From NCBI GenBank assembly GCA_003598085.1, contig QZKU01000112.1:1-33059 (forward strand): a stretch of DNA of 33,059 bases, in the 5' to 3' direction. The stretch comes from Candidatus Abyssobacteria bacterium SURF_5. GTDB taxonomy: Bacteria; Abyssobacteria; SURF-5. Shown here piece after piece: positions 2,015 to 24,189 of the stretch (the first letter of the stretch is position 1; every line of letters begins with the position of its first letter). Position numbers and translations under genes: made by a program. A model generated the notes under the pieces. That model was given only the letters and a program-made list of their open reading frames with translations, made no database searches and was not told the origin of the DNA.

Positions 2015-3112
2015 ATGACAAAAGATAATTCGCGTCCGCGTCGTGCGCCGGATATCGCCGGCCGATGCGTTCTGATGACCGGAACATCCGGATTTGTTGG
2101 CGGCAATCTACTCAAACGCCTGCGACAGGATCACCATTATAAGAGGATTGTGGAGGTCGATGTTGCAAGACCTTCAACAAAATCGACAAAGGAAAAATTC
2201 TACAAAGTAGACCTGACCCATCCCCGCGCCGATGAGATGATCTATGAAATCATCGAGGGCGAAAAACCAGATACCGTGATTCATGCCGGATTCCACCAGC
2301 GGCCGATTTCCGATACCACATATGCGCACGAGGTGACCTCCATCGGAACAATGCACGTTTTGTCCGCATGCGCGGAAGCAGCCATCAGAAAGATCGTGGT
2401 CGCAAGCCGTACCCTGGTCTATGGCGCCAGATATGATAATCCTCATTACATGGACGAAAATTACACGCCGCGGCCTCGGCTGGACTACGAGTTTCAACTC
2501 GATCTGGTGGAAGTCGAGCGCCAGTTGCTTCGCTTCTGGAAAGCGAACCCGAATACGCTCGTAACGGTATTGCGGCATTCCAGCATCATAGGGCCAACCG
2601 TCGATAATTGCTGGACTCATTATCTCTCGATGCCGGTCTGCCCGACCGTTCTCGGTTACAATCCACTGATACAGTTCATTTCGGAAGATGATGTAATCGA
2701 TGCATTCAAGCTTGCCGTAGACGAGGATTTTCATGGTGTCTTCAACATTGTAGGGCAAAGGATCATTCCGCTGAGCATGATCCTCAAGCTGGCTAATAAG
2801 AAAAGCGTGCCGATGCCTTACCCGCTGGCCCAAAATTTTATCAGGGCGCTCTGGATTGCCAAAACCGGACCTTTCCCGCCGGAACACCTCGATTTTCTCA
2901 GATATCATTGCCTGGCCGACGGGTCAAGGGCCAAAGAAGTCATGGGATTTGAGGCGAAAAAGACAGCCTGGCAGGCGCTGGAAGAATTTCTCGAAGTGAA
3001 GCGCCTTGGGCGCGTTGGACGCCGGCCGGCAACGGCGGAGGATGATTCCGACGGAGAAGCGCTTGCCGATATTCCCGCCGCCGAAATGGCGGAGACACTG
3101 CTGCCAAAATAA
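2015..3112 (+). CDS. NAD(P)-dependent epimerase/dehydratase-like SDR protein with degenerate catalytic motif
   Basis: This is an extended short-chain dehydrogenase/reductase-type protein of 365 aa. The ATG at 2015 is preferred over GTG 1979 because GGGGGGA (2002-2007) is well spaced before it. The Rossmann nucleotide-binding motif GTSGFVG is at residues 23-29. The conserved downstream strand (VIHAGFH) and the active-site strand (KIVVASRTLVYG) are present. Where family members carry YxxxK before an AEVER-like helix, this protein reads FQLDLVEVER, so both Tyr and Lys appear lost. Either the fold binds nucleotide without classical redox chemistry or another residue has taken over. The start of the acyltransferase gene 15 nt downstream implies co-transcription and a shared lipid or envelope role. 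The last roughly 35 residues are acidic and probably disordered. Confidence 0.8.
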   Translation: MTKDNSRPRRAPDIAGRCVLMTGTSGFVGGNLLKRLRQDHHYKRIVEVDVARPSTKSTKEKFYKVDLTHPRADEMIYEIIEGEKPDTVIHAGFHQRPISDTTYAHEVTSIGTMHVLSACAEAAIRKIVVASRTLVYGARYDNPHYMDENYTPRPRLDYEFQLDLVEVERQLLRFWKANPNTLVTVLRHSSIIGPTVDNCWTHYLSMPVCPTVLGYNPLIQFISEDDVIDAFKLAVDEDFHGVFNIVGQRIIPLSMILKLANKKSVPMPYPLAQNFIRALWIAKTGPFPPEHLDFLRYHCLADGSRAKEVMGFEAKKTAWQALEEFLEVKRLGRVGRRPATAEDDSDGEALADIPAAEMAETLLPK

Positions 3113-3127
3113 AAGCGAGGGTGCGAA

Positions 3128-4294
3128 ATGGCCACTGAAAAAACCCGGAAACGGAAACCCGCGGCAAGATCCACCGGGGGTCCATCTGTCAAAAAAGCCA
3201 AGATAACCGCAAAGAAGCGAACCAAGGTGCGACGCGATTCGGCTGAGAAAGACAATGGGTACGCCGGCGTCGAACGCAGAATCGAACAGCGCTTGGAGAG
3301 ACTCGAGAAGCGACCCGAGAAAAAGGCAAAAAGAACTCCGTCAATCGAGCCGCAACCGATGGAATCCGAAACAGGATCCTTTGATGTGCCGGTGAAGAAA
3401 TTGAGGCCTTCACCTGCAAAAAGCAGGGACGGGTCATTGAAAAGCGGATTGAAGCGAATCCTTTCGCTCCTGCCCGGCTCGCGGCCACACGATTACGACA
3501 AGCTGATAGAGACGCTGGAGCATATGGATGAATTCGGCAAAGTTCCGGATATCGAAACGAAGTTCGAATCGTTGATGATGTTCCTGTATGAAAAATATTG
3601 GCGGGTGAATACCTCCGGCATCGAAAAAGTGCCTTCCAAAGGGAGAACGCTTATCGTCGCAAATCATTCCGGCGTCATCCCATTCGACGGCGCAATGATT
3701 GCCACCGCAATCTACAAATTTCATCCGGCCCGCCGCCATGCCCGGTTCCTGATCGAGGACTGGTTCGGCCAGTTGCCGTTTGCCACGCAATTCATGAATG
3801 CCGTCGGGCAGGTCAGAGCCTGCCAGGAAAATGCGGAACGACTGCTTCGGCACGACCAACTGGTCGGCGTTTTTCCCGAGGGCATAAAGGGGATGGCCAA
3901 AGGATTCAAGAACCGTTATAATCTCGCCCGGTTCGGCCGCGGAGGCGTCATCCGGCTTGCAATCAAAACGGGGACGCCGGTCGTCCCCTGCGCCGTCGTC
4001 GGCGCTGAAGAAATCTACATCGTTCTCGGATACGCCAACTGGCTCGGCAAGATGTTCGGAATGCCGCTGTTCCCGATCACCGCAACCTTTCCCTGGCTCG
4101 GCCTCCTCGGATTCCTTCCGCTGCCTACCAAGTGGTACATCCAGTTCGGAGACGTCATCAGCTACGATGAGTACGGAGAAGAGGCATTGAGCGACAACGT
4201 GATCGTCAACCGCCTCAACCGGCAACTCCGCTCCACAATTCAGGATATGGTCGATTCGGCCCTGAAAAAGAGAAGATCGCTTTTCTTCGGATGA
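3128..4294 (+). CDS. Lysophospholipid acyltransferase family protein with lysine-rich N-terminal extension
   Basis: This is a PlsC/DGAT-like glycerolipid acyltransferase of 388 aa. ATG 3128 follows GAGGGTGCGA. The catalytic block NHSGVIPFD is at residues 179-187 (His as base; spacing to Asp as in the DGAT-like subgroup). The acceptor-binding FPEG block is at 249-252, and a hydrophobic amphipathic stretch follows (FPWLGLLGFLPLP region). The first roughly 105 residues are unusual: they are very rich in Lys, Arg, Ala and Pro and predicted disordered, resembling histone-H1-like or nucleic-acid-binding tails. Family members usually begin near the acyltransferase fold. The enzyme would transfer an acyl chain from acyl-CoA or acyl-ACP at the inner membrane face. 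The substrate is not determinable. It is coupled to the SDR gene upstream. Confidence 0.85.
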   Translation: MATEKTRKRKPAARSTGGPSVKKAKITAKKRTKVRRDSAEKDNGYAGVERRIEQRLERLEKRPEKKAKRTPSIEPQPMESETGSFDVPVKKLRPSPAKSRDGSLKSGLKRILSLLPGSRPHDYDKLIETLEHMDEFGKVPDIETKFESLMMFLYEKYWRVNTSGIEKVPSKGRTLIVANHSGVIPFDGAMIATAIYKFHPARRHARFLIEDWFGQLPFATQFMNAVGQVRACQENAERLLRHDQLVGVFPEGIKGMAKGFKNRYNLARFGRGGVIRLAIKTGTPVVPCAVVGAEEIYIVLGYANWLGKMFGMPLFPITATFPWLGLLGFLPLPTKWYIQFGDVISYDEYGEEALSDNVIVNRLNRQLRSTIQDMVDSALKKRRSLFFG

Positions 4295-5207: not shown

Positions 5208-5282
5208 TTCTGGATGCGCCTTTACGATTTCCCATAAGCCAAAATGCAATACTTCGCATTTGTTGCGAGTGAAGGGAAAGAG

Positions 5283-6251
5283 ATGGAATATCGATTGCTG
5301 AAAATCGCCAATATCTTGGCCAATGCTCCCGAGGCCGCCAAATTCAGCTTTTCGTTCGAGCCCGATGTCGGCGCACTTACCGCTTCCATACAAGAACTGG
5401 GGCTGATTAATCCGCCGCTGGTGAAAAAAACAGAACATAAATACGAGATCATTTGCGGATTCAACAGGGTTCAAGCATGTTTTCGCCTCGGCATTCCCGA
5501 AATTCCCGTGAAAGTGGCCGATCCCGTCGGATTGTCGGACGAAAAGTGCCTGTGGCTCAGTCTGGTCGACAGCGAATGGTCGCGCCGGCTGAGCCCTGTC
5601 GAGCAGGCGATTGCGCTTCAGAAATTTGCAGCAGTCGGCTATTCAATCGAACGATTATTTGCCGAGATAGCGCCTCATCTGCAATTGCCGCAATCCAGGC
5701 GGCATCTGGAAAATCATCTGCGGTTGACGACCTTGGAACCGCCGATGCTGCAGGCGATTCATCGAGAACAACTCCGAGTGGAACAGGCTTTCCTCCTGCT
5801 CGACGTCGAGCCTCCCGCGCGGCTCGCCCTCTTCGACCTGCTGCAAGCGTGCAAGGCGAACCTCAATGAAACCCGAGAGCTGATTCCCACGATACTGGAC
5901 GTCGCGAAGATGAAAAATCTGGAACCCGCACAATATATTCGGCAATTGGAGGCATCGGCTGTCTCCGGAACGTTCCGCCACAAATTGCAAGTCCTGCGAG
6001 ATTCGCTGGTTAAAAGCAGATATCCTGCGCTGAGTGCCGCACAATCACAATTCGATAATTTGGCCGGTGCGCTGACAGCCGGCCATAACTGCAAGATCGA
6101 AGCGCCGAGATACTTGGAAGGCGATGAGATCAGCATTTCCATTCGAGCAAAAAGTCCGGAGCAACTGGAAGATGTCCTCCGGAAGCTCTCGCGGCCCGAA
6201 TCATCCGATAAAATCAGGTCGCTCTTTTCAATTCTCGGTGGTCATACATGA
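5283..6251 (+). CDS. ParB-N-like (ParB/Srx fold) protein coupled to a radical SAM gene
   Basis: The product is 322 aa. ATG 5283 is chosen because AAGGGAAAGAG lies directly before it; ATG 5244 has no such site. Residues 25-80 match the ParB N-terminal nucleotide-binding fold: SIQELGLINPPLV, then YEIICGFNRVQACFRLGIPEIPVKV. The GERRxRA CTP-binding box of true ParB is here GFNRVQA. A helical middle (SRRLSPVEQAIALQKF, with later repeats of short helices) resembles the HTH portion of ParB. There is no parA, parS cluster or replication gene nearby, so chromosome partitioning is unlikely. The stop codon overlaps the ATG of the next gene (ATGA), implying translational coupling, so it most probably acts together with the SPL-like enzyme. 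Confidence 0.8.
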   Translation: MEYRLLKIANILANAPEAAKFSFSFEPDVGALTASIQELGLINPPLVKKTEHKYEIICGFNRVQACFRLGIPEIPVKVADPVGLSDEKCLWLSLVDSEWSRRLSPVEQAIALQKFAAVGYSIERLFAEIAPHLQLPQSRRHLENHLRLTTLEPPMLQAIHREQLRVEQAFLLLDVEPPARLALFDLLQACKANLNETRELIPTILDVAKMKNLEPAQYIRQLEASAVSGTFRHKLQVLRDSLVKSRYPALSAAQSQFDNLAGALTAGHNCKIEAPRYLEGDEISISIRAKSPEQLEDVLRKLSRPESSDKIRSLFSILGGHT

Positions 6252-7324
6252 AGACGTTCGAGCCGCAAAAGATTTATGTGGAAAAAGCCGCCGCGTCTCA
6301 TCCTCGTGCACAGCGAATTCTGAAAAGCTTTCCCCGTGCAGACATTTCGTATGTCGAAGATCACCGCCGACTGGACTTCTCGCATCTAACTCCCGGCAAG
6401 CGGTTTACAGAAGCGAAGAAATATCTGGCGATCGCGCTCAAGCAGGGTGCGATGGTGAAAGAATTCCGGCGACACGATTCGCTCAACCAGGATAAAGAGT
6501 ATTATCTCCTGCACGCGGAAAACTGCCCGTTCGATTGCAGCTATTGCTACCTCCAATGCTATTTCGCGAACGCGGTTCCCACGATATTCGTCAATGCCGA
6601 CGAGCTGTTTATGCAGGTTCGAGAGATTCTCGAGAACGAACGATCCGACGAAATTCTCTTTCATGCCGGCGAGACAGCCGACGCGCTCGCGCTCGAGCAT
6701 TTTAGCGGATTTGCCGCCGAGGCAGTCGAGCTCTTCTCCCGATTCCACAACGCAACGCTCGAACTGCGGACAAAGAGCGACCTGATCGACACAATTCTGC
6801 CGCTCCGGCACAACAGAAGAACGGTCGTCTCCTGGACATTAACCCCATTGGAAATTAGCCGGAAATATGAAGTCGGAGCGGCATCAATAGAGGAACGTTT
6901 GAAGGCGGCAAGGAAATGCGCGTCTGCAGGTTATCCGATTGGGCTTAGGCTTGACCCAATCATCCATTACCATAATTGGCAAGCCGGCTATGAGAACCTT
7001 GCCGATCTCATTGCTGATGCCCTGCCGCTCGAAACGATCGATTCAATCGTTTTGGGCGCCTTCCGATTTCAGCCGCCGCTGCTCGATGTTATGCGCGCGC
7101 GGTTTGGACGAGATGAACTTGTTCTCGCCGAATTCGTCCCCGGCCCGGACGGCAAGATGCGATATTTCCGGCACATTCGAGAGGAGATGTACCGCGAGAT
7201 AATTGGATTCTTCCGGGAGCGCAACGGCGACAAAATCATTGAAAAAATCGAACTGTCAATGGAACCGCCCTATACGTGGGAGGGTGCGGGATTGCGCAGG
7301 AACTCTATGCATACAGGAATGTAA
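6248..7324 (+). CDS. Spore photoproduct lyase-like radical SAM protein
   Basis: The protein is 358 aa, a length close to SplB. It opens with the family-type KIYVEKAA segment and carries the radical SAM cluster motif C93-x3-C97-x2-C100 (NCPFDCSYCYLQCYF). After it come FVNADELF and the segment FHAGETADALALEHF. In Bacillus SplB the equivalent region reads with a Cys (Cys141) that donates hydrogen to the substrate radical. Here that position aligns to Glu142, so the classical repair cycle would need another donor. The partner gene encodes a ParB-N-like protein with a 4-nt overlap. A DNA repair or nucleic-acid modification role is likely from the family. Activity on spore photoproduct itself is doubtful, and no sporulation genes are seen. 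Confidence 0.82.
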   Translation: MKTFEPQKIYVEKAAASHPRAQRILKSFPRADISYVEDHRRLDFSHLTPGKRFTEAKKYLAIALKQGAMVKEFRRHDSLNQDKEYYLLHAENCPFDCSYCYLQCYFANAVPTIFVNADELFMQVREILENERSDEILFHAGETADALALEHFSGFAAEAVELFSRFHNATLELRTKSDLIDTILPLRHNRRTVVSWTLTPLEISRKYEVGAASIEERLKAARKCASAGYPIGLRLDPIIHYHNWQAGYENLADLIADALPLETIDSIVLGAFRFQPPLLDVMRARFGRDELVLAEFVPGPDGKMRYFRHIREEMYREIIGFFRERNGDKIIEKIELSMEPPYTWEGAGLRRNSMHTGM

Positions 7325-8425: not shown

Positions 8426-10411
8426 TCACGTTTCAAAAACGGGCTGGCCTTTCATATTCTCCGGCGGCTGTATTCCGAATTCCAACAGAATCGACGGCGT
8501 CAGGTCGAGCAGGCGCGGATTCGGGTTCTTCAGTTTCTTGTTTGAGAGAAGGATTCCCGGAACCACTTCAGTCGCCACGCAGTGGTCGCCGCTCCAGCGC
8601 TCGTCGTTATTGACTATTAATTCCTTGGGGAATGAGCCGATCGCCGTCTGCCACGAAGCACGATACCCACGATCGTATCCGATGATCGCGTCGGGCGTCA
8701 GACGCTCATCCGCGGTATGATATGCATCCTTCGTCTTGTAGACGCGAAAGATGACCTGCTCGCCGGTACTAGGATCGCGGACCTCCTCCAGCTTGCGGGC
8801 GATCTCGTCGAGCAGCGCATCCTTTTCCGATGGATGGACGATCCCGCTGCCCTCCCGGCCCCGCTGGTTTATGTACAATCCATTTAAGCCGAGCGCGTAA
8901 GCGCGCGTTTTCGCCCAATTAACGTTTGAATAAAATTCGCCCTCTTCATCATTGGTCAACGTGACGTAGCCGTTATCCTTGAGCCACGTGTTCAGGTTGA
9001 AACACCGGTAAAAGGGGGCAAACCCATGATCGGACATGACGATAAGAGTGGTGTTCTCGTCAAGCTTCCGCAATGCCTTCTCGAGCACCTTGTCCATCGC
9101 AGCATAAATGTCGTAGAGGACATGCTCGTACTTCTGCGCAACCTCTTTCTCATAGATCGGATGCTTTGGATCGATCAGCCACCACAGCATGTGCGAGTTC
9201 TGGTCGAGGCTGCAGAAATAGAAAAAAAGCAGACCGTCTTTGAATTCCTCGACTGCGAGATCATACATCGCCAGCCGCTCCCGCAACACGATCGCCGTCT
9301 GCTTCAGATAGTCCCCGACGGCGAGCGCATCGACCGAAAATGCCTTCGTGTCCTCGGGAAACCCCTGCGTATAATAGCATCCGATTTTTCTGGCCAGCTT
9401 CGCGGCGTAATCATCGGGCGTGGATATCGGCAGCGCGGGATCGAGCGGATCGATGTTGATCGGGCTGACGTAAAACTCGAAGTTGGGACGCGCCTGCTTC
9501 AGGTAAAACCTGCACATTCCGCTGACACTCTGAAGGTACGGGACGGCCACAAATTTCAGATGAATCCACTCGCTGAATTCGCCCACATTGAGCAGGATTT
9601 CCTGGTCTTGAACTGCTATTTTCGCAACAGGATTCTCCGGATCGATATGCACGGTGAAATCAATGGCGATGGTAGGCTCGTCTTTCTTGAAGCTATTCTT
9701 CGGCCCCTCGATCTGAGCGGTCACAGTATCCCGATAAACGTCGACGGGGACTATCCTGCCGCCGGTAACATCCTTGTCCTCATATTTTGCCGGATTTGTG
9801 GTGTACAAAGTGAATGTTCCATACGAGCCGAGCATGTCCGGTGTTCCCATTCCTGAAAGTGAGCGGCCGCTCGATTCCGCCGGCGGAAAATTGGCCGGCA
9901 TCTTGATAACGTTCGTCGGAATTCCATTCTCTTCGAGTATCTGCCAAAACGCTCTCCCTTTGCGCAGCAACGTGGTTTCCCCGCCGGAAAGAGGAATAAC
10001 CCAATCGCCAAGCGTCCACGTCCTTTTCGCGCCTTCCGCCTTGCTCGTGGATAGAAACGGCAAATAGTTTTCCGGTTCACGATGAATGAAATCGCAGATG
10101 CCGTGTCCGCCGGGATCCATTCCGGTGATGAAGTCGGACCAGGCAACCGGGCTTTGCGGCGGAACGCTCGAGCCGAGCGCGCTGAATGAGCCATCTTGCG
10201 CCAGTTTCAAGAAGGAGGGCATTCTCCCCTCATCCATCATCTTTCGGAGAATTACCGGATCCATCCCGTCAATTCCGAGGATGATAACCTTTTTGGAGCC
10301 CGTGAAAAAGGATTTGGCGCTCTTTCCAACTGCCTCCGCAACGGCCGCAGGCGCAACAGCCGCCCCAACGGTCCCAACTCCGATCAGCTTGAGAAATTCG
10401 CGACGGTCCAT
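8426..10411 (-). CDS. Tat-exported alkaline phosphatase superfamily phosphodiesterase-like hydrolase (D)
   Basis: The product is 661 aa. ATG 10411 is chosen because GGCGAGGTGAC precedes it and because it places a Tat signal (RREFLKLIGVGTVGAAVAP) at the N-terminus. Two-metal centre residues of the type I phosphodiesterase/nucleotide pyrophosphatase family are visible: Asp48 in GIDGMDP, nucleophile Ser87 in PQSPVAWSDFITG, the PGGHGI turn, DQNSH, SDHGF and a C-terminal GDHC. There is no CxPxR formylglycine motif, so it is not a canonical sulfatase. A roughly 150-residue beta-rich insertion lies after the TPDMLGSYGTFT segment. Periplasmic action on a phospho- or sulfo-ester or a nucleotide is likely. 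It is the close partner of hydrolase C (same insertion, same C-terminal motif set), 80 nt upstream in the operon. Confidence 0.85.
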   Translation of the reverse strand: MDRREFLKLIGVGTVGAAVAPAAVAEAVGKSAKSFFTGSKKVIILGIDGMDPVILRKMMDEGRMPSFLKLAQDGSFSALGSSVPPQSPVAWSDFITGMDPGGHGICDFIHREPENYLPFLSTSKAEGAKRTWTLGDWVIPLSGGETTLLRKGRAFWQILEENGIPTNVIKMPANFPPAESSGRSLSGMGTPDMLGSYGTFTLYTTNPAKYEDKDVTGGRIVPVDVYRDTVTAQIEGPKNSFKKDEPTIAIDFTVHIDPENPVAKIAVQDQEILLNVGEFSEWIHLKFVAVPYLQSVSGMCRFYLKQARPNFEFYVSPINIDPLDPALPISTPDDYAAKLARKIGCYYTQGFPEDTKAFSVDALAVGDYLKQTAIVLRERLAMYDLAVEEFKDGLLFFYFCSLDQNSHMLWWLIDPKHPIYEKEVAQKYEHVLYDIYAAMDKVLEKALRKLDENTTLIVMSDHGFAPFYRCFNLNTWLKDNGYVTLTNDEEGEFYSNVNWAKTRAYALGLNGLYINQRGREGSGIVHPSEKDALLDEIARKLEEVRDPSTGEQVIFRVYKTKDAYHTADERLTPDAIIGYDRGYRASWQTAIGSFPKELIVNNDERWSGDHCVATEVVPGILLSNKKLKNPNPRLLDLTPSILLEFGIQPPENMKGQPVFET

Positions 10412-10491
10412 ATCTGTCACCTCGCCGCCCCGGAGGCTTTCCGGCCTATTTTCCTTAATCATCTTGCCGGTTGCCCGGAGCATTCACCATA

Positions 10492-12633: not shown

Positions 12634-13944
12634 TTAGCCCTCCATGTACTGCAGAATGATGCCGGCGATATCGGTGATGTTCAGGTTCTGCGGCGGCTGT
12701 TGCGGGGAAAAGAAGAATGCATCGTCCCACGTGTGCATGCCCGTGAGCGCGCTCCGGCCGAAAAGCTCCTTTTTCTTGGGTGAACTCTTCACATCGTAAC
12801 CATACTTCGATACAACCACCAGATCGGGCCCCTGCTCGGCAAATGGACCGTCATATGCCTCTGCTCGCTCAAACACCTTCTCTACGACACGGTCACCGTT
12901 GCACGACAGCTCGCTCAGACCCGCCTTGATATCCGCAACGATCGAGCGAACATCCTCCGGCTTCACCGAACCTTTCGGATATTTCCCTGTCATGTTCAAG
13001 TAAATGCGCGACGGATCAAGCGCAAACGCAAGAGAACCCTCACTAATGGCCTCAATCGAATCGACTTCTTCCGCCTCAAGTTTCAGGAAGCCCTCCTGTT
13101 TCAGCCAGGCATTCAAATAGAATTCGCTCTTGATGCCGGTAAATCCGTGGTCCGAGAGTATAAAGAAGCCGGGAGTATTCTCGCCGGCGCCCGTGAGCCG
13201 TCGAAAACGCGAATGGATCGACCCGATAAATGAGTCCACCCGCCGATAAAAGTTCAAAAACGCCTCATGATGCTGATCCGAGGTATCATCGAGCGCCGAC
13301 CACAGGTAATGGTGCAGCCGGTCGGTGCCGGTCACGACGACCTCGAACAGGTCCCACTCTTCGCTGTCCCACAGTGAATTGACCGTCCGTTGGCGCGCAT
13401 CAAGCGTCCGGTTCAGCTCGTTCACGAGGTACGCGTGGTCCTCGCGCGCGCGCATCGTGTCGATATCGATGATGTAGCCGTCCTGCTCCAGCTTCGGCAA
13501 CAGCGACTTTGGATGTACCGCCTTCTTCAGGCTCAGCGCGACAAACCCGGAAATGAGCACGCCCTCGATCGGCCGCGCCGGATACGTTGACGGCTGATTG
13601 ATGACGATGCTCCTCTTCTTCTTTTCGCCCAGCTTGTCCCATATCGTCGGAACCCGTACGTCCCCAAAGGAAGGGAACCGCAGGCTGTAGGAATGAGGCT
13701 TGAGGTCGACAAACCCAAAGATCGAGTGCTGTCCCGGATTGACGCCCGTCATGAAGCTCGGCCAGCTCACCGCCGAGATCTCCGGAAGCGTCACTTTCAT
13801 CTGCGCCAGATGGCCGCTCCTCAATATCTCGGCCGTTTCCGGCATCGTGCCGTCTTCGGTCAGTCTTTTCAACAGCGTGTACGGGACTCCATCGAGCCCG
13901 ACAACGCACACCTTCCTCTTCTTTTTACTCCAGAACGCTGACAT
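12634..13944 (-). CDS. Cytosolic-looking alkaline phosphatase superfamily hydrolase (B)
   Basis: The product is 436 aa. ATG 13944 follows GAGAGGGCT. There is no signal peptide or membrane segment; the protein starts with a basic SKKKRK segment and enters the fold at once. Metal and nucleophile motifs are Asp18 (VVGLDGVP), Ser57 (EISAVSWPSFMTG), PGQHSIF, TDRLHHYLW, SDHGF and a C-terminal His (GMHTWDD). It lacks the beta insertion seen in hydrolases C and D and is therefore the minimal form. It is stop-to-start contiguous with hydrolase C. It could process a nucleotide such as PAP, APS or PAPS, or a glycan precursor; the sequence does not decide. Confidence 0.83.
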   Translation of the reverse strand: MSAFWSKKKRKVCVVGLDGVPYTLLKRLTEDGTMPETAEILRSGHLAQMKVTLPEISAVSWPSFMTGVNPGQHSIFGFVDLKPHSYSLRFPSFGDVRVPTIWDKLGEKKKRSIVINQPSTYPARPIEGVLISGFVALSLKKAVHPKSLLPKLEQDGYIIDIDTMRAREDHAYLVNELNRTLDARQRTVNSLWDSEEWDLFEVVVTGTDRLHHYLWSALDDTSDQHHEAFLNFYRRVDSFIGSIHSRFRRLTGAGENTPGFFILSDHGFTGIKSEFYLNAWLKQEGFLKLEAEEVDSIEAISEGSLAFALDPSRIYLNMTGKYPKGSVKPEDVRSIVADIKAGLSELSCNGDRVVEKVFERAEAYDGPFAEQGPDLVVVSKYGYDVKSSPKKKELFGRSALTGMHTWDDAFFFSPQQPPQNLNITDIAGIILQYMEG

Positions 13945-22319: not shown

Positions 22320-22348
22320 TTGAAGACCCGCGGGAAATGTGTTATGGT
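22320..22348 (+). promoter_or_regulatory. Possible promoter of the B12-binding radical SAM gene
   Basis: TTGAAG (22320-22325) and TATGGT (22343-22348) are spaced by 17 nt and lie about 80 nt before the chosen ATG at 22429. This placement argues against the alternative GTG start at 22339, which would lie inside the promoter. Confidence 0.4.
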
Positions 22349-22428
22349 ATGCGGCAGAAAGCAGGAAATTTGATGTAAAGAGACTCTGCCTGTTGGAAGA
22401 AAATGCGCGAACAAGCGAGGTGGCCGAT

Positions 22429-24189
22429 ATGAAACGCGTTCTCCTCACGAATCAGTATGGCCCCTATCCTCGATCATGGGGCACGAACTCATACGACATC
22501 ACCGAAACGCGATTCCACCGCGGCCAAGGGGCGTTCGCCCTCAGCTCGCATATTCACTGCCTGGCGCTCTACCTGATCGCCGAGAATATCAAGGCGGTCA
22601 CCACCGTAGTGGAGTACCCTCGCATCGAGGACTTCGAGGAGGAGCTGAGAAAGGGCTACGATTACTGGGGCATTCAGATGGTTTCGATCAACACCAACAA
22701 AGTGGCCGACATGATGCGTCTCGCTCGCAGAATCGCCCCGCAGACAAAAATCATCATCGGCGGCTACGGCGTCCTCAGCCTCGATGATCCTCCGCCCGGA
22801 GAGCCCACGCGCGATGCCCAGTATATCCTGGAGCAGGCCGACTACATCTGCCGAGAGGAAGGCATCCGCTTCATGCGCAGGCTGCTCGGCGACGAGCCGG
22901 TCGACCGCCCGATCACCCAAAAATATCCGCCGCGCGACGGCACGACGTACCCGGGCCTCGAACAGATGTTCTCCGACAGATCGCGCAACATGGCGCTGGT
23001 CGCGCTCGGATGCCCCAACGGATGCGAGTTCTGCTGCACATCGGCCATGTTCAAGAGGAAGAAGATCTACGTCGCGACGCCGCAGGAGACATTCGAAAGT
23101 CTCAAGCACAATTGCCGGCGCAACGGCGGCAGGGCAACCACCACCGCCCTCATGGACGAAGACTTCCTCATGAACCGCAAGTACGTGCACGAACTCGGAA
23201 AGCTGATTCAGGAGGATAAGGAATTCGGCCTGCGCAAACTCAGCTATTTCTGCTTCGGCGACCTCCGCTCGATGACCAAATACAGCATGGAGGAACTGCT
23301 GGAGAATGGCGTCGACACCGTTTGGATCGGCGTCGAATCCAGCATCGACGACGTCATCACTTCCGAACACAATATCGCGAAACGCAAGTGCGACGATATC
23401 AAATCCACCTTCCGCGGAATGGAGGAGTACGGCATCGGCATCACCGCATCCCTCGTTCTCGGATGGGATTTTCATACGCGCGAGAACATCGAGCGGGACA
23501 TCGACTTCTTCGTCGACCTCAAACCGTCGGCTCACCAGATAACGTTCCTCGGCGCCTGCCCCGGCACCAAGCTGTACGAGAGAATGAAAAAAGAAGGCCG
23601 GATCAATCCTGAGTTCGCTTATAAGGACATTGAGCAGTGCAACGACGTCGGCTCGTTCATCCCCAAAAACTTCAAGCGGGGCGAACTGAAACATTATTTC
23701 GATCTCGCGCACACCAAGCTCTATGAGGCAAACGGGCCCGGCATCTTCCGAATGTTCCAGCTCAACCTGAACGGCTACGAAACGTGCAGCACCTCTCACC
23801 GCCCCTTGCTTCGCAAGGACAAAGCCCCCTTCTTCGAGGAGCGCTGCAGGCGAGGATATCCGCTCATCGAGGCGTGCGCCAAGTACGCGCCCAACGAAGG
23901 CGTGCGTCAAAAAGTCGACGAGGCAAAGGGAAAATACCTCCGCCTGTTCGGCGAGCCGGACGAAGAGCAGAAGGTCTACTCCAAATTCTTCTGCGAAACC
24001 GTCGGCCGGCGCGCCGAGAGACTGAAGACGGAACCCCCGGACGAGACACCATTCGATCCGCCCGTTCGGCGCACGTATTACGACCCGTCTCGCGGGCCGG
24101 TTCCGCTGGTTAAAAAAGGACGAGGACCGGGCGACCCGGTCCCTTATAACGCCTTTGACGAGCCCGAACACCTCTCCAATGTCTGTTAG
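22429..24189 (+). CDS. B12-binding-domain radical SAM protein
   Basis: The product is 586 aa. ATG 22429 is chosen: GCGAGG precedes it, and the protein then starts with the typical KRVLLTNQYGPYP. Residues 1-120 form a cobalamin-binding-like Rossmann domain (YWGIQMVSINTNKVADMMRLARR, TKIIIGGYGV). The [4Fe-4S] motif is Cys195-x3-Cys199-x2-Cys202 (ALGCPNGCEFCC). The radical SAM barrel follows, with TVWIGVESSIDD, ASLVLGWDFHT and ITFLGACPGTKLYERM. The C-terminal roughly 160 residues are extra. The canonical DxHxxG cobalamin His motif is not evident. Typical reactions are methylations or ring rearrangements in lipids and natural products. The substrate is unknown and the gene appears to be monocistronic. 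Confidence 0.9.
   Translation: MKRVLLTNQYGPYPRSWGTNSYDITETRFHRGQGAFALSSHIHCLALYLIAENIKAVTTVVEYPRIEDFEEELRKGYDYWGIQMVSINTNKVADMMRLARRIAPQTKIIIGGYGVLSLDDPPPGEPTRDAQYILEQADYICREEGIRFMRRLLGDEPVDRPITQKYPPRDGTTYPGLEQMFSDRSRNMALVALGCPNGCEFCCTSAMFKRKKIYVATPQETFESLKHNCRRNGGRATTTALMDEDFLMNRKYVHELGKLIQEDKEFGLRKLSYFCFGDLRSMTKYSMEELLENGVDTVWIGVESSIDDVITSEHNIAKRKCDDIKSTFRGMEEYGIGITASLVLGWDFHTRENIERDIDFFVDLKPSAHQITFLGACPGTKLYERMKKEGRINPEFAYKDIEQCNDVGSFIPKNFKRGELKHYFDLAHTKLYEANGPGIFRMFQLNLNGYETCSTSHRPLLRKDKAPFFEERCRRGYPLIEACAKYAPNEGVRQKVDEAKGKYLRLFGEPDEEQKVYSKFFCETVGRRAERLKTEPPDETPFDPPVRRTYYDPSRGPVPLVKKGRGPGDPVPYNAFDEPEHLSNVC

Follow-up and report, generated by a model that had tools for sequence, protein, structure and literature searches.

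Why should a ParB-like protein be encoded in overlap with a radical SAM enzyme that resembles spore photoproduct lyase (SPL)? This question is raised by a gene pair of Candidatus Abyssobacteria bacterium SURF_5, found in the 33,059 nucleotides of contig QZKU01000112.1 that we analysed as a whole and call the window. A sequence-only reading had proposed that the ParB-like protein supplies a nucleotide switch or DNA clamp for the radical SAM enzyme, in what might be a DNA repair or base-modification system. We found that the pair is part of a linked gene set with two to four members that occurs in many bacterial phyla, and that this set probably modifies some molecule of the cell and does not repair UV damage. 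The explanation that we favour, to which we give a probability of about 0.5, is that of a SAM-consuming modification enzyme that acts on a nucleotide-like substrate and forms one functional unit with a nucleotide-binding ParB-like adaptor. In 5.39 million open-access papers, we found no description of a pairing of ParB with spore photoproduct lyase, and a 2025 survey of ParB folds mentions neither radical SAM enzymes nor SPL.

The features of the pair are collected in Table 1. The positions of the two reading frames and their four-nucleotide overlap, as first described, agree with the ORF coordinates; the replacement of GERRxRA by GFNRVQA in the ParB-like protein was confirmed, and the reported lack of parA and sporulation genes holds for the roughly 15 window ORFs scanned. 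The ATG of the ParB-like gene at 5283 has AGGGAAAGAG ahead of it, and an alternative in-frame ATG at 5244 would give a product of 335 amino acids. Pfam matched both domains of this protein (ParB_N, 6e-7; HTH_ParB, 1e-6). Its gene has a methyltransferase gene and the SPL-like gene as neighbours, with no parA beside it, and in relatives the neighbours are again not parA but GT2 glycosyltransferase and SPL-like genes. Elsewhere in the window, a second radical SAM gene (22339-24189; Pfam 4.9e-10) lies downstream of the pair, at a distance of about 15 kb, and is unrelated to the SPL family matches, and two of several window paralogues of the type I phosphodiesterase/nucleotide pyrophosphatase family lie on the minus strand (8426-10483 and 12634-13944).

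Table 1. Features of the ParB-like/SPL-like gene pair, in window coordinates
Feature	Position	Strand	Basis or remark
ParB-like protein, 322 aa	5283..6251	+	ORF list; ParB_N and HTH_ParB above curated cut-offs
ParB_N (ParB-CTPase fold) domain, residues 27-95	5361..5567	+	Pfam; missing from several lineages
P-motif G59-F-N-R62 (canonical GERR)	5457..5468	+	G and R invariant; Glu absent
HTH_ParB-like region, residues 103-201	5589..5885	+	Pfam; matched in 6/16 relatives
ParB-like C-terminal module, about residues 150-322	5730..6248	+	Retained in truncated relatives; fused to SPL-like proteins
ATGA start/stop overlap, ParB-like/SPL-like	6248..6251	+	ORF coordinates; -4 spacing also in relatives
SPL-like radical SAM protein, 358 aa	6248..7324	+	Pfam SPL 1e-38
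Radical SAM motif C93-PFD-C97-SY-C100	6524..6547	+	Three Cys in 77/77 relatives
G141-E142, Glu at the hydrogen-donor Cys position of canonical SPL	6668..6673	+	Alignment of 77 relatives
K303-M-R305-Y306, shortened C-terminal hairpin of SPL-like protein	7154..7165	+	K 76/77, R 75/77, Y 77/77

A four-nucleotide overlap is by itself ordinary; its conservation is far beyond chance. Using profiles of the ParB-like and SPL-like families (A1 and A2) built from matches found in other phyla, we surveyed 290 genomes, mostly one per family and from many phyla. Full-length matches to the window ParB-like protein were present in other phyla, most of them with an SPL-like gene directly downstream. The ParB-like family occurs in 38 of the 290 genomes, and 36 of these 38 also have the SPL-like family, compared with 57 of the 252 genomes without the ParB-like family (Fisher 3e-18); one of the two exceptions (G032) is a gene truncated by the end of its contig. 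The pair is unlinked in about 11 genomes, where its members sit on separate contigs or at a distance from each other, and the co-occurrence is thus not merely a matter of neighbours being transferred together. When 84,980 species genomes were scanned, 567 relatives of the SPL-like protein emerged, and the best 80 of these come from Deltaproteobacteria of the Desulfobacterota and Myxococcota type, KSB1, Zixibacteria, Aminicenantes, Marinimicrobia, Omnitrophota, WOR-1, Spirochaetia, Nitrospirae, Acidobacteria, Binatia, and Sumerlaeota, with a ParB-like gene just 5′ of the SPL-like gene at most of these 80 loci. Over all collected loci, the ParB-like gene is immediately upstream of 83 of 126 SPL genes; 44 of the 83 adjacent pairs overlap, and 22 have exactly the -4 spacing of the window. 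Since these 126 loci were selected by ParB or SPL matches, with a few repeated, the count over 290 genomes is the unbiased one. Some SPL relatives have no ParB nearby.

Pairwise distances of the two families correlate with r=0.82 (permuted maximum 0.08), a value that includes shared ancestry, and in two lineages (L093 and L230) the C-terminal part of the ParB-like protein is fused to the front of the SPL-like enzyme. The functional coupling proposed from the sequence is thus borne out by a neighbourhood conserved across phyla, by co-occurrence, and by fusions. We rejected the possibility that the genes are cargo of a mobile element, as synteny is stable within clades and the ParB, SPL, and GT2 distances agree. 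In viral contigs, scanning with single sequences turned up no relative, and scanning with an alignment only distant SPL-like phage proteins that lacked ParB. The SPL-like proteins of two viral contigs have a GELxDSL motif (L137, 6842-7711; L138, 8065-9192) and lie beside ORFs that may resemble three-Cys-motif partner proteins.

ParB and SPL folds meet at other places in the small phylum of the window. For instance, in a genome of the window's own family (G002, locus L003), a different SPL-like radical SAM gene (1444-2541) is directly followed by the gene of a short ParB_N protein (2553-3161; E 1.5e-4, under the cut-off), a second and apparently independent case of the two folds lying side by side. 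A third such neighbourhood (G001, locus L002) has another SPL-like radical SAM gene (1450-2706) overlapping a gene in which ParB_N is fused to N6_N4_Mtase (2646-4031). At two further loci (L049, 9989-11080; L053, 9537-10694), the ParB-like gene is followed by a GalT-like (DUF4921) gene, and the SPL-like gene lies elsewhere in the genome.

The AlphaFold2 model of the ParB-like protein, built with 72 relatives, has a pLDDT of 94.7. Its best Foldseek matches in the PDB are Noc and the CTP-bound ParB of Myxococcus (E ~2e-8), and ParB/Noc proteins are its nearest solved relatives. Sulfiredoxin, SbnI, and SerK, enzymes of the ParB/Srx fold, gave weaker matches to the N-terminal part; the match spans only about 80 residues and the family shows no sign of a serine kinase context, but the likeness means that a ParB fold need not imply partition. 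With ParB/Spo0J and Noc of the ParABS and nucleoid occlusion systems, the family shares the ParB_N and HTH fold and the GxxR P-motif, in which G59 and R62 are found in 72 of 72 relatives. It differs from them in having no parA, a different C-terminal module, a single gene adjoining SPL, and no catalytic Glu of GERR (0/72; mostly Phe, Tyr, or Trp instead). The Asn and Arg of Box III are kept in 60 and 62 of the 72 relatives (Ser and Arg in the window), and the TIGR00180 score of the window protein is 49.7 against a cut-off of 58.45. Kaljevic et al. (2025, PMC12704722) reported that NTP binding depends on the Arg of GxxR and that orphan ParB folds have CTP, ATP, or GTP as ligands, which, together with the invariant GxxR, makes nucleotide binding plausible here. 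Judging from these residues, the ParB-CTPase domain probably still binds nucleotide where it is present, and hydrolysis is doubtful because the catalytic Glu is gone. The nucleotide pocket on which the first proposal depended is thus recognizable, with a P-motif intact in sequence inside a predicted ParB-CTPase fold.

A switch or clamp is nevertheless not what the family conserves most widely. In truncated lineages, ParB_N and the greater part of the HTH region are missing, and at several loci (L083, L091, L107, L131-L133, L221, and L229), as well as in the fusions, nothing before about model position 150 is kept. Within this C-terminal module, R246, P248, and E279 are nearly invariant, and none of the PDB matches to the model covers its end. 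By this pattern of retention, the indispensable part of the protein is the C-terminal module and not the nucleotide switch. The proposed role as clamp or switch is not general, as in several lineages the nucleotide domain is absent along with most of the HTH region. A function as the chromosomal partition protein was rejected, given that relatives carry a separate canonical ParB beside the family member and that the Glu is lacking. In the window genome (G000; 5.1 Mb, 98.5% complete), a PF02195 search found ParB_N nowhere else and no canonical ParB, which two relatives do have, reflecting either loss or an assembly gap.

The SPL-like protein keeps the whole SPL fold but not all of the relay residues. 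Its model (pLDDT 92.1) matches the SPL structure 4fhc over its whole length (TM 0.82/0.86 over 347 columns), far above any other radical SAM protein, and the nearest solved relative is the SPL of Geobacillus. With SplB (TIGR04070, PF20903), the family shares the fold, the CxxxCxxC motif and the Tyr between its second and third Cys (both in 77 of 77 relatives), and the K and Y residues of the hairpin. All 11 of 11 relatives match TIGR04070 (best E 6.6e-47), with the window protein at 148.1 bits against an equivalog cut-off of 400; for TIGR03886, it reaches 82 bits against 438. The TIGR03886 "SPL family" proteins are likewise SPL-like proteins of non-spore-forming bacteria, but they lie far from the window family in a quick tree. 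In SPL, a Cys donates the hydrogen (PMC5368176), and this mechanism was our reference for comparing the relay. At the donor position (C141 in Bs, C140 in Gt), the 77 relatives have Glu in 75 cases, Gln in 2, and Cys in none, whereas Bacillus SplB and the two TIGR03886-type proteins compared have Cys. The first of the relay Tyr residues (Y97 and Y99 in Bs) is present in 77 of 77 and the second in only 11, the window protein among them. The substrate hairpin is six residues shorter than that of Bacillus SplB, and, unlike SplB, the family goes without spores and with a ParB partner. By this comparison, canonical SPL chemistry fails at its defining residue.

A different route to hydrogen transfer may exist in the sister clade of the window protein. 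Cys residues at window positions 73, 82, and 337 are nearly invariant in that clade (Phe, Asp, and Ser in the window) and might serve as ligands of a second cluster or take the place of the donor, a role filled by C74 in C. acetobutylicum SPL. C73, found in 74 of 77 relatives, was aligned weakly by HMMER, with a gap nearby, to the engineered C76 of 4rh0, and it may stand in for the SPL donor in most relatives; SPL-like hydrogen transfer is therefore possible in the sister clade. In this quick, unfinished tree, the SPL-like proteins of the window and of its closest relative (G089) form a group (support 92) outside a clade of 75 rows (support 98) that holds the other module members. Because it lacks these three Cys residues and its genome lacks the glycosyltransferase described below, the window enzyme may differ from those of the sister clade.

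These observations bear directly on whether the ParB-like protein, as a DNA clamp or nucleotide switch, delivers the enzyme to DNA lesions or bases, which we consider unlikely. The full SPL fold, the K-x-R-Y residues kept in the hairpin, the ParB fold with its HTH, and the possible replacement of the donor by C73 would all suit such a system, and elsewhere SplB-like proteins are encoded in SOS operons (PMC3765255). Nevertheless, the donor Cys is lost throughout, the Tyr relay is broken in 66 of 77 relatives, the hairpin is shortened, and some lineages that keep the C-terminal module lack ParB_N and the greater part of the HTH. Furthermore, the recurring partners are a GT2 glycosyltransferase and a PNP-family nucleosidase, clustering of neighbours found no recurring repair gene, and record titles place many hosts in dark habitats, among them deep sediment and groundwater. 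Repair of UV lesions by the pair is thus unlikely, and the claim of DNA repair is not supported, with base modification as such being possible.

The partners define a larger module. In many lineages, a GT2 gene lies upstream of ParB (GT2-ParB-SPL), and these GT2 proteins form one tight family, with 41-58% identity across phyla to that of locus L036. The family was found in 55 of the 290 genomes, 51 of which also have the SPL-like gene. Four loci (L036, L221, L225, and L229) have overlapping PNP-GT2-ParB-SPL operons, in which the fourth member is of the PNP_UDP family; a divergent PNP occurs in L048, L220, L073, and Aminicenantes, and in L237 the PNP is fused to GT2. In total, PNP is linked to the module in only about 15 loci. 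Beyond GT2, ParB, SPL, PNP, and a GalT-like gene, neighbour clustering revealed only clade-specific synteny. The module GT2 was not found in the window genome or in G089, and the window pair is a sister branch without it; a GT2 and PNP neighbourhood in the window genome (C64) was rejected as a module because its glycosyltransferase is DPM1-like. At three loci (L076; L090, 7101-8075; L124), an SPL-like gene without ParB is followed by a ThiI and NFACT-R_2 PP-loop gene, overlapping it in L090 and L124, and has a GalT-like DUF4931 gene upstream, which hints at a link to RNA or nucleotides.

In hopanoid synthesis, HpnH, HpnG, and HpnI follow a logic of adenosylation, depurination, and glycosylation that has also been proposed for arsenosugars, and MqnE and MqnB similarly pair a radical SAM enzyme with a PNP-family protein. 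By analogy, the SPL-like enzyme might add a 5′-deoxyadenosyl radical to an acceptor, from which PNP would remove adenine and whose ribosyl product GT2 would glycosylate. The PNP-GT2 fusion, the overlapping four-gene operons, the loss of the SAM-recycling relay, the matches of module PNPs to MTAN and HpnG models, and the weak match of GT2 to the arsenosugar model TIGR04283 are in keeping with this scheme, which we nonetheless find distinctly improbable in full, even more so than a clamp. The GT2 match is under its curated cut-off, as are those of the PNPs (nearest AMP nucleosidase, HpnG, or PNP models), except for the L036 protein, which exceeds the MTA/SAH nucleosidase cut-off and fits a simple clearance of 5′-deoxyadenosine equally well; PNP may merely serve that purpose. 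In addition, the known pathways use other radical SAM families and no ParB, the SPL fold is known for hydrogen abstraction and not for addition, and the scheme explains neither ParB nor the window branch. Least credible is that the ParB-like protein regulates transcription of the operon by binding DNA, as KorB and VirB do, and does not itself contribute to the radical SAM reaction, since its ParB_N and HTH architecture and the existence of ParB-fold regulators are outweighed by the fusion of its C-terminal part to the enzyme in two lineages, the loss of the HTH region where the C-terminal module stays, the co-occurrence even of unlinked genes, and the highly correlated ParB and SPL distances.

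Returning to the explanation of an adaptor and an enzyme forming one unit, the fusions support a docking of the ParB-like protein on the SPL-fold enzyme through its distinctive C-terminal module. The nucleotide domain, where present, would bind nucleotide and hydrolyse it poorly or not at all, serving as a sensor or scaffold and not as a partition protein. Since the Cys/Tyr chain that regenerates SAM in SPL is lost, we would expect the enzyme to consume SAM, either releasing 5′-deoxyadenosine or transferring the adenosyl radical, and its substrate is probably nucleotide-like because the SPL fold persists together with the K-x-R-Y residues of its hairpin. In the large sister clade, GT2 and, in some lineages, a PNP-family nucleosidase would handle the product further, and such partners point to biosynthesis or modification and not to the reversal of lesions. 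A tentative and less probable extension is an adaptor-controlled pathway that spans many phyla, most of them uncultivated, with a ParB-fold subunit sensing nucleotide, an SPL-fold enzyme that has ceased to recycle SAM, and a product that is depurinated and glycosylated.

Orphan ParB-fold proteins are common and bind several NTPs, and their functions are mostly unknown (PMC12704722). With the pair described here, one large orphan ParB family gains a defined enzyme as its partner, and with it a subunit interface open to testing. At the same time, an SPL-fold clade that spans many phyla cannot use the hydrogen-donor Cys of the textbook SPL, and annotations of such genes as "spore photoproduct lyase" should therefore not be read as UV repair. 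If the reading of an adaptor-controlled pathway is true, it would provide the first case of a radical SAM enzyme with a ParB-CTPase-fold subunit.
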